DNA from: Halomonas meridiana
GTDB lineage: Bacteria > Pseudomonadota > Gammaproteobacteria > Pseudomonadales > Halomonadaceae
Direction: 5' to 3'
Assembly (NCBI RefSeq): GCF_009846525.1
Contig: NZ_CP024621.1
Coordinates: 1,054,001-1,118,000 of the forward strand
DNA: 64,000 nucleotides
The position numbers and the translations under genes were made by a program. Below, in pieces: positions 9,147-46,612 of the stretch (its first letter is position 1; every line of letters starts with the position of its first letter). The notes below the pieces were generated by a model. The model was not told the origin of the DNA. It ran no database searches and saw only the letters and a list, made by a program, of their open reading frames with translations.

Positions 9147-10199
9147 TTAGGTTACGGGCTGGTTGGTCGTATTCTTCTCAAAAGCTTCCACTTCAAACTC
9201 AGGCTCGCGAACCAAGCCGAGCGCGTCATCAAACAAGCGTAAGCCCGCGCCCTCTTTATGTGCGTGCTCCGACAGGTGACGGCGGAACCGACGCCCGCCA
9301 GGGCAGCCCTGGAAAAGCCCTAGCAAGTGGCGAGTAATATGATTGAGCTTCGCCCCCTCATCTAGCCGCTGCTGAATGTACGGGCGAAACGCCGTGGCCG
9401 CTTCCAAGCGTGTACGGGCAGGGCCCTGCTCGCCAAAGAGCTGCTCATCCACACCCGCCAGTAGCCATGGGTTTTGGTACGCTTCACGACCCACCATCAC
9501 GCTATCCACCTGCGCAAGCTGCTCTTGGCACTCCGCCAGGGTTTTAATACCGCCATTGATACCAATATGCAGCTCAGGATGGCTCTGCTTTAGCCGATGT
9601 ACGCGGGGGTAATTCAGCGGCGGAATATCGCGATTCTCTTTCGGCGACAGCCCCTGCAGCCACGCCTTACGGGCGTGTACGGTAAATACTTCACAGCCTG
9701 CTGAGGCCACAATATCAATAAACCGCGCTAAATCGGTGTCTTCATCCTGGTCATCGATACCAATACGACACTTCACCGTGACCGGAATCGACACCGCCGC
9801 CTGCATGGCCTTCACCGCAGCGGCCACTTTGTCGGGGTGGCCCATGAGGCACGCGCCAATCATATTGTTCTGCACCCGGTCACTTGGGCAGCCAACGTTT
9901 AAGTTGACCTCATCATAGCCCCACGCCTGCGCAATCGCCGCGCACTCCGCCAGCTCACCCGCATCGCTGCCTCCCAACTGCAGAGCAATGGGATGCTCCA
10001 CTTCGCTATAGCCCAAAAAGCGCTCGCGGGGAGAACCATGTAGCACCGCCCCGGTGGTCACCATCTCGGTATACAGCAGCGCCCGCTTGGTGAGCGTGCG
10101 GGCGAAGGCGCGGTAGTCGCGGGTCGTCCAGTCCATCATGGGGGCAATAGAAAACAACCTACCCCTGTCAGCACTGCTATTTCTATTTAAATCAGTCAT
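9147..10199 (-). CDS. dusA: tRNA-dihydrouridine synthase A (prophage-restored 5' end)
   Basis: FMN/NADPH enzyme that reduces uridines in the tRNA D-loop. 350 residues; the flavin-binding SIAPMMDWTTRD (residues 17-28), catalytic Cys104 in NVGCPSDRVQ, and TVHARKAWLQGLSP are all present. The gene is a hybrid: the 14-bp phage attachment core covers codons 19-23, so residues 1-18 (MTDLNRNSSADRGRLFSI) and the whole promoter region come from the prophage, while the rest is chromosomal. The displaced original beginning, reading MTTQHPANAARRFSVAPMMD, is found at 46223-46140. Ribosome-binding site upstream of the present start is poor. DusA-targeted integrases that rebuild the gene are an established family. 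Confidence 0.95.
   Translation of the reverse strand: MTDLNRNSSADRGRLFSIAPMMDWTTRDYRAFARTLTKRALLYTEMVTTGAVLHGSPRERFLGYSEVEHPIALQLGGSDAGELAECAAIAQAWGYDEVNLNVGCPSDRVQNNMIGACLMGHPDKVAAAVKAMQAAVSIPVTVKCRIGIDDQDEDTDLARFIDIVASAGCEVFTVHARKAWLQGLSPKENRDIPPLNYPRVHRLKQSHPELHIGINGGIKTLAECQEQLAQVDSVMVGREAYQNPWLLAGVDEQLFGEQGPARTRLEAATAFRPYIQQRLDEGAKLNHITRHLLGLFQGCPGGRRFRRHLSEHAHKEGAGLRLFDDALGLVREPEFEVEAFEKNTTNQPVT
10132..10145. other. attL core (inside dusA)
   Basis: TCCATCATGGGGGC on the plus strand, the complement of dusA codons 19-23. It is identical to 46165-46178; the bases on both sides then diverge. Confidence 0.85.
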
Positions 10200-10267: not shown

Positions 10268-10292
10268 AGTGTACCACCAGTGTACCAAGCGG
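10268..10292. repeat. 25-bp direct repeat, left copy (candidate integrase arm sites)
   Basis: A perfect 25-bp match to 46105-46129. It contains two copies of GTGTACCA 11 bp apart. A further copy in inverse orientation (TGGTACAC) lies at 10320, just before the integrase start. The repeat sits 123 bp inside the left core but only 36 bp inside the right core, so it is not the crossover site; integrase arm-type binding or autoregulation of int is the likely role. Confidence 0.7.
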
Positions 10293-10329
10293 CGGCAAAC
10301 TCCCAATTTCCAAAAATCTTGGTACACCA

Positions 10330-11352
10330 ATGGCTAGTTTTCAGAAGCGGCAAGGGGCTTGGCGGGCTATTGTACGGAAGAAAGGCCACCCCTCCCAGAG
10401 TAAAACGTTCAGCACCAAAGCCCGGGCCCAGAAGTGGGCGCGCCAGGTCGAAGGCCTCATCGAAGCGGGCCTGATAGGTGAGGGCAACATACCCACCATT
10501 GATGACCTATGCCGGTGGCACTTGGCTCACCTGGAAAGAACCTCCAACCGTGGCCGCAAAAACCAGACCGGAGCGAACAACATCAAGCGGGGCCTGGGTG
10601 CAGAAACGCTAATCACCGAGATCAATTATTTGAAGCTGCAGGTGTTCTGCGAGACGCGAATAAAGGTTGACGGTGTTAAGCCCTCTACCACGCTGCTGGA
10701 TGTCCTCTTTCTCTCGGGTGCCATCACCACCGCAGTGGTAGAAGGTCGCCTGCACTCTGATTATAAGACCAAAGTGAGTGGTTGGTTATCAGGCTTGAAG
10801 CGGGCAGGCTTAACAGGTAACCCGGAAGATCGGGAGCGGCGGCCGTCAAATGAAGAGCTAGAACTGCTGCTGGTTCATACCCAGCACAATCGGGCGCTTC
10901 GCACGATTCGCTATCACGACATTATCCGCTTTGCCGTGGATTCCTGCATGCGGCTTGATGAGATCTGCTCACTGCGCTGGTCAGACTTCGACGCTAAGAG
11001 CGGCACCATCGTGGTCAGGCTGCGCAAGCATCCGGTTAATAAAACCGATCAGGTCGTCCCGCTCATGGGGAAAAGCCAGGCCATTATCGAAGCCCAGCCA
11101 CGCGCCGGAGAGAAGATCTTTCCCTTCAACACGGATTCGGTTTCAAACGGCTTTCGTCGTGTGTGTAATCACTTAGGGATTGAGAACTTACACTTTCACG
11201 ATTTGCGGCATGAAGGTATTAGCAGGCTGTTTGAACGGGGGTATCAAATTCAGGAGGTGGCCATCGTTTCTGGCCACCGGGATTGGAAGAGTTTAAAACG
11301 GTATGTGAATCTCAAGCCCGGTGAGTTGGTGAAGAGGGAAAGGGCGGCTTAG
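10330..11352 (+). CDS. int: Tyrosine recombinase (dusA-type prophage integrase)
   Basis: Catalyses insertion and excision of the prophage. 340 residues: an N-terminal AP2-like arm-binding part (residues about 1-60, FQKRQGAWRAIVRKKG), a core-binding domain, and the catalytic domain with Arg208 (CMRLDEICSLRW), HDLR (His290, Arg293), His316 (SGHRDWK) and the nucleophile Tyr325 (KRYVNL). All active-site residues are present. It reads away from dusA, and the start is preceded by GTGTACCA-type repeats that may let the protein control its own promoter. Its 3' end overlaps the convergent PrtN-like gene by four bases. Insertion in the 5' end of dusA fits the known dusA integrase family. Confidence 0.95.
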   Translation: MASFQKRQGAWRAIVRKKGHPSQSKTFSTKARAQKWARQVEGLIEAGLIGEGNIPTIDDLCRWHLAHLERTSNRGRKNQTGANNIKRGLGAETLITEINYLKLQVFCETRIKVDGVKPSTTLLDVLFLSGAITTAVVEGRLHSDYKTKVSGWLSGLKRAGLTGNPEDRERRPSNEELELLLVHTQHNRALRTIRYHDIIRFAVDSCMRLDEICSLRWSDFDAKSGTIVVRLRKHPVNKTDQVVPLMGKSQAIIEAQPRAGEKIFPFNTDSVSNGFRRVCNHLGIENLHFHDLRHEGISRLFERGYQIQEVAIVSGHRDWKSLKRYVNLKPGELVKRERAA

Positions 11353-11567
11353 GCCGCCGTTTCGCGTTGGGCGTCAATGAATTTGGCGGCATCGGCAATA
11401 TGCACCATGGGTTGGCGGGCGGTGCGGGTGAGTGGCACCGGGAAAGTGCCTTGCGCGATCCGGTTGCGGGCGGTCTGTAGCGACACGCCCATAATGTCAG
11501 CGCAGAACACTTCCAGAGGTATCAGCGGCTTTTCGTAGCATGCCAGCAGCATGAACTCAGTTTTCAT
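11349..11567 (-). CDS. PrtN-like small DNA-binding protein (candidate excisionase/activator)
   Basis: 72 residues starting MKTEFMLLACYEKPLIPLE, with a winged-helix-like core (VFCADIMGVSLQTARNRIAQG) and a C-terminal IADAAKFIDAQRE helix, the layout of the pyocin activator PrtN family. Start 11567 is set by AAAGGAG ten bases upstream; a longer frame from 11639 lacks this. It is the last gene of the leftward early operon and converges with int. Members of this family next to integrases are plausible recombination directionality factors; PrtN itself activates pyocin genes. No separate Cox/Xis was found elsewhere in the prophage, which favours the excisionase reading. Confidence 0.75.
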   Translation of the reverse strand: MKTEFMLLACYEKPLIPLEVFCADIMGVSLQTARNRIAQGTFPVPLTRTARQPMVHIADAAKFIDAQRETAA

Positions 11568-11899
11568 TGTGGGCTTACTCCTTTCTGACGCGCCCGCCAG
11601 TGGTTGAATCGGTTGCGTATCATGCGAAACGTTTGGCACGCGGCTGGGTTGCTATCCAGCTCGGCGCGGCTGTTAATTTTGCAGGCGGCACACAGCCAGT
11701 CGCGTGCATCTTCGGCGGTATGGGTGCCGTCGGGTAACTGGCTTTCGTTTAGTTGGTGTTTGTACCGGCGGCGGCGATCCAGGTAGAGCTGAAACGCTTT
11801 GTCTTGGCACAGCATTGCTGCCTGGCGTGCGTAGGCACCACCTTTTGGTGGTGGCGGCGTTCTCGCTGGCGGAGTGTGGCTGTGTCTTGTATTTATCAT
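11564..11899 (-). CDS. Conserved phage protein of unknown function
   Basis: 111 residues. The body (residues 25-105) is basic and helical, with QDKAFQLYLDRRRR, LPDGTHTAEDARDWLCAAC and a C-terminal FRMIRNRFNHWRARQKG; similar short proteins occur in P2-like prophage early operons, but I cannot give a function. It overlaps the next gene by four bases, and its ATG overlaps the TGA of the alternative frame at 11896-12816 as ATGA, which bears on whether that frame is translated. AGTGAGG lies nine bases before the ATG. Confidence 0.75.
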   Translation of the reverse strand: MINTRHSHTPPARTPPPPKGGAYARQAAMLCQDKAFQLYLDRRRRYKHQLNESQLPDGTHTAEDARDWLCAACKINSRAELDSNPAACQTFRMIRNRFNHWRARQKGVSPQ

Positions 11900-12816
11900 G
11901 CTGCTACCTCACTCTTCGCTGAGCAGGGCGAATGCTGCCGCCGCCACTCGTGGAACTTGTCCATTTCCAAGGGCTTTAATTCTGTCCACCCGATTGGCCA
12001 CCCCATCAGCCACTCGACCCACGTCGGGTTCAGCCGGCCACCTTGACCACCCTCGGGAGCTACTGCTGTGCTCAGCCGAACCTGTTGACCTTTTTCCTTT
12101 CTCTCCAGAAGTGACTGATTGCTCCATTTGTTTGCATCCGAGGCATTTGGTGTGGGGTACATCTTTACTACATCCGCCAGTGACGGAGACCGCCGAGCCA
12201 TATCTCCCGGATAGCCATTTTTGTTCCAATCTGACGCCAGCGGCGTCGGGTACTTTTTTACTGCTGTTGCTAGTCCGTCCCCGCTTTTCGCACTTACCCC
12301 TTTCCGGTTGTTGTTCCCGCAGACTGTGGGAGTAGGCCACAATCCAGATTCTTTCCCTCTCATGGTGTGCACCAAGGTCGGCAGCGGATACGCAGCCCCA
12401 TGGTGCATCAAACCCCATTTCGGCCAGGTCTCCGAGAACCCTTCCGAGTCCGCGAGAAGTGAGCACTGGGCTGTTTTCCACGAAGACGTAGCTGGGCTGT
12501 ACTTCGCGAATGATCCGCGCCATTTGCTCCCATAATCCTGACCGCTGCCCCTCGATGCCGGCACCTTTTCCTGCAGCGGAGATGTCTTGGCAGGGAAAGC
12601 CGCCAGAAACGACGTCAACACGGCCTCGCCATGGCTTTCCGTCAAAACTGCACACGTCAGACCAAATTGGGAAAGGCGCGAGGGCTCCATCATTTTGTCG
12701 TTGCGCCAGAACTTGTGCGGCGTAGGCATCACGCTCAACGGCGCAGACGGTGCGCCACCCAAGCAGGTGGCCGCCGAGTATTCCGCCACCAGCGCCCGCG
12801 AAAAGAGCCAGCTCAT
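11896..12816 (-). CDS. Alternative full-length frame overlapping the methyltransferase (possible dual-coding gene)
   Basis: A 306-codon open frame, +1 relative to the methyltransferase, starting four bases after its GTG and stopping 13 bases after its stop. Its product has ordered motifs rather than random content: SSWKTAQCSLLADSEGFSET then WPKWGLMHHG, three W/YPTP-type repeats (LWPTPTVCGN, YPTPLASDWN, YPTPNASDAN), and NPTWVEWLMGWPIGW near the C-terminus. I recognise these motifs from many phage hypothetical proteins. The TGA at 11898-11896 overlaps the next ATG as ATGA, typical of a translated upstream gene. The caution is that such motifs may simply be the other-frame reading of conserved methyltransferase DNA. 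Confidence 0.4.
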   Translation of the reverse strand: MSWLFSRALVAEYSAATCLGGAPSAPLSVMPTPHKFWRNDKMMEPSRLSQFGLTCAVLTESHGEAVLTSFLAAFPAKTSPLQEKVPASRGSGQDYGSKWRGSFAKYSPATSSWKTAQCSLLADSEGFSETWPKWGLMHHGAAYPLPTLVHTMRGKESGLWPTPTVCGNNNRKGVSAKSGDGLATAVKKYPTPLASDWNKNGYPGDMARRSPSLADVVKMYPTPNASDANKWSNQSLLERKEKGQQVRLSTAVAPEGGQGGRLNPTWVEWLMGWPIGWTELKPLEMDKFHEWRRQHSPCSAKSEVAA

Positions 12817-12820
12817 TCAC
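11909..12820 (-). CDS. C5 cytosine DNA methyltransferase
   Basis: 303 residues from a GTG start at 12820, eight bases into the preceding gene's end. Motif I ALFAGAGGG, motif IV GGFPCQDIS with catalytic Cys77, motif VI ENS (115-117), motif VIII-like HHERERIWIVA, a variable target-recognition region (about 165-255), and motif X VGRVADGVANR...KALGNGQVP are all in order. It transfers a methyl group to cytosine in a sequence it defines; no restriction enzyme gene is adjacent, so a self-protection role against host restriction is likely. A second long reading frame runs through nearly the whole gene (see next entry). The target sequence cannot be predicted. Confidence 0.93.
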   Translation of the reverse strand: MNELALFAGAGGGILGGHLLGWRTVCAVERDAYAAQVLAQRQNDGALAPFPIWSDVCSFDGKPWRGRVDVVSGGFPCQDISAAGKGAGIEGQRSGLWEQMARIIREVQPSYVFVENSPVLTSRGLGRVLGDLAEMGFDAPWGCVSAADLGAHHERERIWIVAYSHSLREQQPERGKCEKRGRTSNSSKKVPDAAGVRLEQKWLSGRYGSAVSVTGGCSKDVPHTKCLGCKQMEQSVTSGEKGKRSTGSAEHSSSSRGWSRWPAEPDVGRVADGVANRVDRIKALGNGQVPRVAAAAFALLSEE

Positions 12821-13031
12821 GAAACCCCCGCGCCTTGTGCTCACGGATGCCTTGGCAACCGATGCAAGTAGTGGCCCAAGGCGCGGCCTGGCGGCGCGCG
12901 ACTGGGATCTCGTAGCCGCAATCGTCACACTCGGTGTTTGTGACGTGTCGGGCCAGCGCAGCACGGTTGGCCAGCGTGGCTTCCAGGCTTTGTTGGATGG
13001 TGACCGCGGCGCGGTCGACGTTATCGGCCAT
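12813..13031 (-). CDS. DksA/TraR-type C4 zinc-finger protein
   Basis: 72 residues: a helical N-terminus, then Cys35-x2-Cys38 (CDDCGYEIPVARR) and Cys56-x2-Cys59 (CIGCQ), the TraR/DksA finger. Small phage members bind the RNA polymerase secondary channel and shift promoter choice. The start at 13031 is set by GAAGGA eight bases before it; a GTG at 13052 is in frame but lies in the tail of the replication gene. It overlaps the methyltransferase GTG by eight bases, so the pair is translationally coupled. Confidence 0.88.
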   Translation of the reverse strand: MADNVDRAAVTIQQSLEATLANRAALARHVTNTECDDCGYEIPVARRQAAPWATTCIGCQGIREHKARGFRE

Positions 13032-46102: not shown

Positions 46103-46104
46103 GA

Positions 46105-46129
46105 GTGTACCACCAGTGTACCAAGCGGG
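46105..46129. repeat. 25-bp direct repeat, right copy
   Basis: Perfect match to 10268-10292; two GTGTACCA units 11 bp apart. It lies just inside attR and abuts the start of the 87-residue gene, so bound integrase could also affect that gene. Confidence 0.7.
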
Positions 46130-46139
46130 CTGGAAAGCC

Positions 46140-46223
46140 CTATTTTACTGGGCTTGTCGTCCCATCCATCATGGGGGCGACGGAAAATCGGCGGGCCGCG
46201 TTTGCTGGGTGTTGTGTCGTCAT
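46140..46223 (-). pseudogene. dusA: Displaced 5' fragment of the original dusA
   Basis: ATG at 46223 opens 27 codons reading MTTQHPANAARRFSVAPMMD then GTTSPVK and a TAG at 46142-46140. FSVAPMMD is the DusA N-terminal motif; the homology stops a few codons past the att core, exactly as expected where phage DNA begins. This is therefore the native start of dusA, cut off by the integration. The native promoter should lie in 46224-46300; TATAGA (complement of 46252-46257) is a possible -10. Confidence 0.88.
46165..46178. other. attR core (inside the dusA remnant)
   Basis: TCCATCATGGGGGC, identical to 10132-10145. To its right is chromosomal dusA 5' DNA; to its left is phage DNA. Confidence 0.85.
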
Positions 46224-46612
46224 ATCAATCACTTGCATCAGTAGGATGCTGTCTATATGTCTTGCTCGGAGGACCACTCATGTACCAATGTCAACGTTCT
46301 TGCCGTGTCACGAAAAGAGGTGGTACACCGTGGCTATGTAGTCGGAGGGGTATCGTTAGCGTGCAATTGTACGCAAGAAGGGCTGAACAGTACAAAGCTG
46401 GGCGTACCGCTCAAACGTTAATAGGGCAGTGTCGCCCGATGATGCGTGGCTTATCAAAGGGGGCGATGTGGAAAGGCTTGTATCAATAATGGCACAGCAG
46501 ATCGCTCTTCTTATAAACCCTTGCATCACTTTGCGTATTTTGCGGTCAAAAGCGGTATGGTGAGAGCTTGCGTTGTGCTGTCGTGGGCGGAACATTAACA
46601 AGAGGAGTCGTT
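46224..46612. other. Intergenic region, native dusA promoter region
   Basis: No supported gene in 389 bases. The left part should hold the original dusA promoter. GTACCA and TGGTACAC (about 46282 and 46321) resemble the integrase-arm motif but lie outside the phage. The right part leads to the lipoprotein gene, with AAGAGGAG before its ATG. Confidence 0.6.

Follow-up and report, generated by a model that had tools for sequence, protein, structure and literature searches.

Islands and prophages specific for dusA supply the gene with a new 5' end, with replacement of the first beta strand of the protein (Farrugia 2015, PMC4482086). In the accessible part of that work the integrase adjoins dusA, the 5' end of the gene contains direct repeats, the original version of that end is found at the outer boundary and putative promoters are present in both states, as in the whole stretch of 64,000 nucleotides of Halomonas meridiana DNA analysed here (the window); unlike here, that part describes neither the retention of a head after loss of the integrase nor a promoter inside int. 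Integration of IMEVchUSA3 at dusA lowered dusA expression in E. coli (Durand 2021, PMC8409611), but this is a mobilizable island and not a P2-like phage as in the window, and the available text reports no fossil heads and does not state the promoter position. In Shewanella the deletion of the prophage SP1 lowered dusA transcription (PMC10845958). A P2-family prophage of 36,056 bp is known in dusA of Halomonas (PMC11131426); the accessible description of this element, Phm2 from a coral-associated strain, does not discuss the exchange of head or promoter.

The P2-like phage Smhb1 of Salinivibrio (PMC8537503) is likewise inserted in dusA and, as in the window, has a displaced 30-aa head at the far att site; direct repeats flank int and the head, and the DusA N-termini fall into two groups. 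The authors, in the text available, attribute the displaced head to a past infection of another strain, whereas here displaced host heads and phage-borne head classes are suggested. A promoter in a dead integrase gene that drives the host target, similar to what is proposed below, was described for SpyCIM5 at mutL in Streptococcus pyogenes Manfredo (PMC3430984), and the integrase-pseudogene promoter of SpyCI at mutL is, as far as the accessible part of that paper goes, the nearest precedent for a retained int promoter; unlike the present case, it is limited to a single strain and to another target gene, with no head replacement or recurrent turnover described there. Neither retained dusA heads nor a dusA promoter antisense to int were found in the open text of the literature on dusA integrases, prophages and remnants and on promoters of decayed elements. 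Until now head swapping at dusA had been described as a feature of live elements; what appears to be new here is the lasting retention and the repeated replacement of phage-type dusA heads in the genus Halomonas.

The H. meridiana genome consists of one contig of 3.86 Mb, in which a P2-like prophage of 36.03 kb occupies the 5' end of dusA (Table 1). The P2-like assignment is one of gene content: the genes between the cores include the integrase, a GPA-type replication protein (PF05840, E 2e-76), a terminase with a gpP-like domain (PF06056, E 8e-24), a portal (PF04860, E 4e-11), a tail tape measure and a tail fibre. The characters of dusA-specific prophages are also present, namely a phage-type tyrosine integrase that adjoins the dusA 5' end and starts divergently 130 bp upstream of it, direct repeats at both prophage ends within the dusA 5' end, a replaced 5' end with the original at the outer boundary, and an empty site in frame. 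The prtN homologue, a common but non-obligatory character found in 60 of 94 published dusA islands, is present as well. Overlapping ORFs at 11896-12964 on the minus strand contain, in one reading frame, PCQ and ENSPVL motifs that are presumably those of cytosine-5 DNA methyltransferases.

Table 1. Features of the two prophage ends and of the flanking dusA pieces, in positions of the window.
Feature	Position	Strand	Remarks
dusA, intact chimeric gene, 350 aa	9147-10199	-	Pfam Dus E 5e-85; NCBIfam DusA equivalog E 9e-153
Phage-supplied dusA head MTDLNRNSSADRGRLFSIAPMMD	10132..10199	-	similar head in phage contig L188
14-bp core TCCATCATGGGGGC, left copy, within dusA	10132-10145		
25-bp direct repeat, left copy, two tandem TGGTACACT units	10268..10292	-	probable integrase arm-type sites (inferred)
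TGGTACACCA adjoining integrase start	10320..10329		possible further arm-type site; match also in 17/100 shuffles
Tyrosine integrase P0001, 340 aa	10330..11352	+	Pfam Phage_integrase E 7e-20; PHROG integrase E 3e-43
Candidate -10 TACAAT of phage-borne dusA promoter	10369..10374	-	antisense to integrase codons 14-15
Weak candidate -35 region of phage-borne dusA promoter	near 10393-10398	-	
PrtN (PyocinActivator) homologue adjoining int	11349..11567	-	PF11112 E 1e-11
P0005, right-end phage ORF, 87 aa	45839..46102	-	no known family; downstream of displaced host head
25-bp direct repeat, right copy	46104..46128	-	present in other prophages too
Displaced host dusA head	46140..46223	-	20 host codons to core, then GTTSPVK and stop on the phage side
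14-bp core TCCATCATGGGGGC, right copy	46165-46178		
Weak integrase fossil M*SEGYR*RAIVRKKG*TVQS upstream of displaced head	46336..46390	+	score 43, shuffles <=40
TACAAT of displaced host dusA promoter (putative)	46366..46371	-	now faces P0005

The sequence-only reading had described the left-end dusA as intact with a start of its own, and the gene indeed opens with the phage-type head and runs through the full frame. The two copies of the core are direct, exact and separated by 36,033 bp; the published consensus of such repeats has a length of 21 bp. When the host flanks are joined in silico, a single open dusA frame of 347 aa results, beginning MTTQHPANAARRFSVAPMMDWTTRDYR..., and in the free phage contigs L188 and L193 the dusA head is closed by a stop immediately beyond the core, which is the circular-type junction of relatives. 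The 25-bp repeat, in which the tandem units are 11 bp apart, was considered as the crossover core and rejected, since both copies lie inside the prophage; probably it holds arm-type sites instead. At the right end the ORF 46223..46140 (-) translates to MTTQHPANAARRFSVAPMMDGTTSPVK followed by a stop, and consists of MTTQHPANAARRFSVAPMMD outside the right core and of seven phage codons. The 27-codon ORF and its stop outside the right core were thus correctly noticed, but the stop had been placed directly after MMD, where GTTSPVK intervenes. The 21-mer around the right core is unique in the window even when as many as 3 mismatches are allowed, with 0 further matches expected by chance, and a chance ORF is ruled out by the core, the flank and the empty site.

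The same reading had proposed that the prophage replaced the DusA N-terminus together with the upstream region, and had suggested a comparison with prophage-free relatives. In the congeneric (Halomonas-type) sample of 82 genomes, dusA and the neighbour gene P0003, which by eye looks like a lipoprotein gene, are present in 82 of 82. In the near relatives G033 and G004 no more than 390 and 389 bp separate this neighbour from dusA, and they are therefore without a prophage at this site; their heads, MNKQSPADMARRF and MKKQSPADMARRF respectively, resemble the displaced one. With each of them the displaced flank shares 258 of 329 aligned positions, whereas the left end of the phage shares 189 of 295, and heads like the displaced one are found where no integrase sits at dusA. 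Homologues of P0005 hold the equivalent position in the contigs L353, L354 and L356, where each is accompanied by a displaced head (class A, see below), the core, a stop and the arm repeat; the layout is absent from L355 and L358, which have a P0005 homologue and a readable upstream region, while L357 begins inside the gene. By these alignments and this shared layout, the displaced piece is the previous dusA start of the host. A prophage-free relative with a start of the left-end type had been named as the contrary observation. Such starts exist (MTNLxKENSADRGRLF, integrase-dead), but their upstream DNA is a recognisable decayed phage arm, so they are scars and no refutation, and the swap stands. 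At the level of DNA comparison, swap and in-frame empty site are demonstrated; the exchange of dusA heads by elements is already published biology, here confirmed.

Heads could be parsed in 78 of the 82 genomes (all except G001, G019, G022 and G053) and were divided by author-set motif patterns into class A (...PADAARxF, 32), class B (...SADRGRxF, 23) and class C (...LDRTF, 23); the head supplied by the prophage of the window is of the class B type. Next to the 46 heads of classes B and C the integrase is intact in 5 (G000, G006, G016, G048, G073), almost complete but broken in 3 (G008, G032, G047), reduced to a fragment in 12 and undetected by tblastn in 22, and 4 loci have too little sequence to decide (the integrase-status label 'contig ends' includes loci cut at the neighbour gene). 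An intact integrase was seen alongside none of the class A heads among the 78 parsed genomes, and with the window integrase as query 6 of 82 genomes gave a match at E 1e-30 or better. The distance from dusA to the neighbour gene, which could be measured within a single contig for 63 of the 82 genomes, is often 1-10 kb and not of prophage length. Upstream regions of class B align to the left arm of the window prophage as decayed copies with traces of the arm repeat, and arm-like sites are in part retained at integrase-dead class B loci, so retention there exceeds promoter and head. The integrase-dead class B heads differ pairwise by means of 0.147, 0.079 and 0.401 at codon positions 1, 2 and 3; the differences are mostly at the third position, as expected of a protein start in use. 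These comparisons demonstrate, as far as genome sequences can, that phage-type heads persist in relatives with a dead integrase, and their lasting retention in the Halomonas group is well supported. In G031 (L148), G074 (L180) and G008 (L132) the dusA matches stop early (E 3e-164 to 1e-96, frames of at most 284 aa), and the gene may be broken or misassembled in these genomes.

Among the 54 integrase-dead genomes of classes A and B, the octamer CGTACAAT is found at -340..-60 in 53 and at -680..-400 in 1. Another conserved block, xTGTgC, lies 17-18 bp upstream of it and the similarity beyond is background (0.28-0.30), in a profile that is anchored on the octamer, whose columns are conserved by construction, and from which near-identical rows were removed (53 to 48). 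TACAAT is conserved at the candidate -10 in integrase-dead relatives, the displaced head of the window has the same promoter-like element, and in class C the pair ATGCGA-N17-GAAACT behaves likewise at the 14 integrase-dead loci that hold the anchor. A consensus promoter was rejected, because a generic sigma-70 scan found none at either prophage end; the -35 of the window is weak. With moderate confidence the two-part element can be regarded as a putative dusA promoter lying antisense inside the first ~25 integrase codons. In G007 (L131; listed with L007) the octamer is tandemly duplicated upstream of dusA, with TACAAT at 233 and 215 bp.

Short N-terminal integrase fragments lie antisense to dusA at a near-constant distance from the head. 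These fossils were scored by aligning them locally with the N-terminal 50 residues of two integrases, and the maximum of 78 shuffles (40) is passed in 64 of the 78 genomes (class A 27/32, B 18/23, C 19/23) and not in the other 14, including G026, G065 and G072 of class C. A phage origin is not established throughout class C, and these three heads may be vertical. Class A heads bear fossils too, the longest of about 34 codons (G057 and G079), and this 'native' type is therefore probably phage-delivered as well. Older heads are seen farther out in G069 (class A beyond A), G047 (B beyond B) and G014 (A beyond C), and displaced heads also in G048 and G032. In the window, the fossil upstream of the displaced head scores barely above the maximum of 100 shuffles and is suggestive, not strong alone. 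As this head carries both the promoter-like element and the weak fossil, it may be an older scar; an older phage origin is weakly indicated, and the earlier view of the displaced head as the ancestral native start may not hold. If this reading holds, a head taken for the 'original' one at an att site is not necessarily ancestral, and DusA N-terminal variation can follow prophage history.

The explanation proposed here, to which a probability of about 0.7 is assigned, is that the phage carries a substitute promoter for dusA, antisense within int, and that head and promoter outlast the decay of the phage. A dusA-specific tyrosine integrase would direct integration at the conserved SVAPMMD codons with exchange of the front ends; the phage would contribute about 22 DusA codons, the start site and the upstream region, with its promoter antisense in the first 25 or so integrase codons, and the host head and promoter would be pushed to the right end, facing P0005. 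During prophage decay the promoter stretch and the head would be kept by selection because dusA needs that stretch, and would persist until the next element replaces both. If true, the swap usually outlasts the element in this group, and integrases donate a promoter and an N-terminus to a conserved tRNA-modification gene; coding DNA of phages would then repeatedly have served as a host promoter as well, with the integrase fossils as a record of successive integrations. The balance tilts slightly towards a wider formulation, in which the promoter and first codons of dusA, otherwise a conserved housekeeping gene, form in Halomonas and relatives a phage-derived module that is replaced time after time, dusA integrases carry the promoter of the host gene antisense in their N-terminal codons, a dying prophage leaves promoter and head behind, where selection on the host maintains them, and even the 'native' heads go back to earlier integrations as their fossils.

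The published model would be sufficient if the new head and promoter served only while the phage is integrated, with the old ones restored on excision, the promoter located in the arm between int and head and class A ancestral. The weakness of the fossil at the displaced head of the window agrees with it, as does the fact that no class A head was seen beside an intact integrase; however, the majority of class B and C heads are without an intact integrase, class A heads bear fossils in the proportion and length given above, one of them (G069) lies beyond another, and the arm between element and head is unconserved across classes, which makes this reading unlikely. Mixing of head classes on the tree is expected also if hosts had exchanged dusA front ends by homologous recombination and the integrase-dead heads were not left by local prophage decay. 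The residual gaps of 1-10 kb, the broken or truncated integrases and the double heads point to local decay in many cases, although single genomes are undecidable by this evidence, and recombination is considered an improbable explanation.

It is also doubtful that the two-part element is another site, for example that of a regulator, and that dusA is transcribed from elsewhere: the weak -35 of the window and the scan without a consensus promoter would fit, but the blocks are 17-18 bp apart, the second is -10-like, and they are conserved at loci with a dead integrase, in two types of sequence that are unrelated to each other. The sequence-only reading had further supposed that lysogeny alters the dose or activity of DusA and, in turn, tRNA dihydrouridine. 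Expression of dusA shifted with element status in two published cases, but in opposite directions; moreover, alignment to solved Dus structures starts at residue 16, most of the replaced residues precede the conserved fold, and in Acinetobacter the loss of dusA together with the island was described as leaving phenotype arrays unchanged, so that such an effect has little probability.

Turnover of the proposed phage-borne module is suggested by a quick tree of the dusA body minus the head (78 rows, one gene, one short search), which requires at least 20 head-class changes, against an average of 36.3 for shuffled labels. Single-label changes are 14 for class A, 8 for B and 17 for C, with 11, 7 and 14 respectively forced by well-supported branches, and sister rows can differ in class: G028 is of class C and G031 of class B. 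Simple vertical descent of the class B and C heads was rejected in view of this mixing and, in class B, of the upstream phage-arm DNA. Family outgroup loci were parsed in 37 of 40 (all except G089, G112 and G182): TACAAT is present in 10 of 10 outgroups with heads ending in ARRF, while short heads such as MTDLDRTF are mostly without both elements, with one element in 1 of 12, a set that includes the long class C head of G214 caught by the pattern and possibly responsible for that one. The short outgroup heads may represent the unhit form.

In Bradyrhizobium near-complete integrase N-termini are present at 15 of 26 scored loci and 4 more are above the shuffle maximum; the loci are the best 30 DusA matches of 60 genomes (L364, L382, L384 and L388 unscored), a sample biased by the choice of best matches and by a query with an integrase-linked head. 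Generality beyond the family was set aside because live integrases dominate this biased sample, and lasting retention may be a trait of the family of Halomonas. Among 80 named genome loci with related integrases, the dusA head lies 125-205 bp from the integrase start in 35 and was not found by the motif pattern in the other 45.

P0005 was rejected as a known gene, since it belongs to none of the families of PHROG, NCBIfam and Pfam and matched nothing among phage records; in contig L193 the corresponding position is held by an ORF of the HNH-endonuclease type. In the lysogen P0005 may be driven by the putative displaced host dusA promoter. Two genes beyond the right core, P0004 (47213-47836, minus strand) is a Cro/C1-type HTH regulator with phage-repressor-like PHROG hits.
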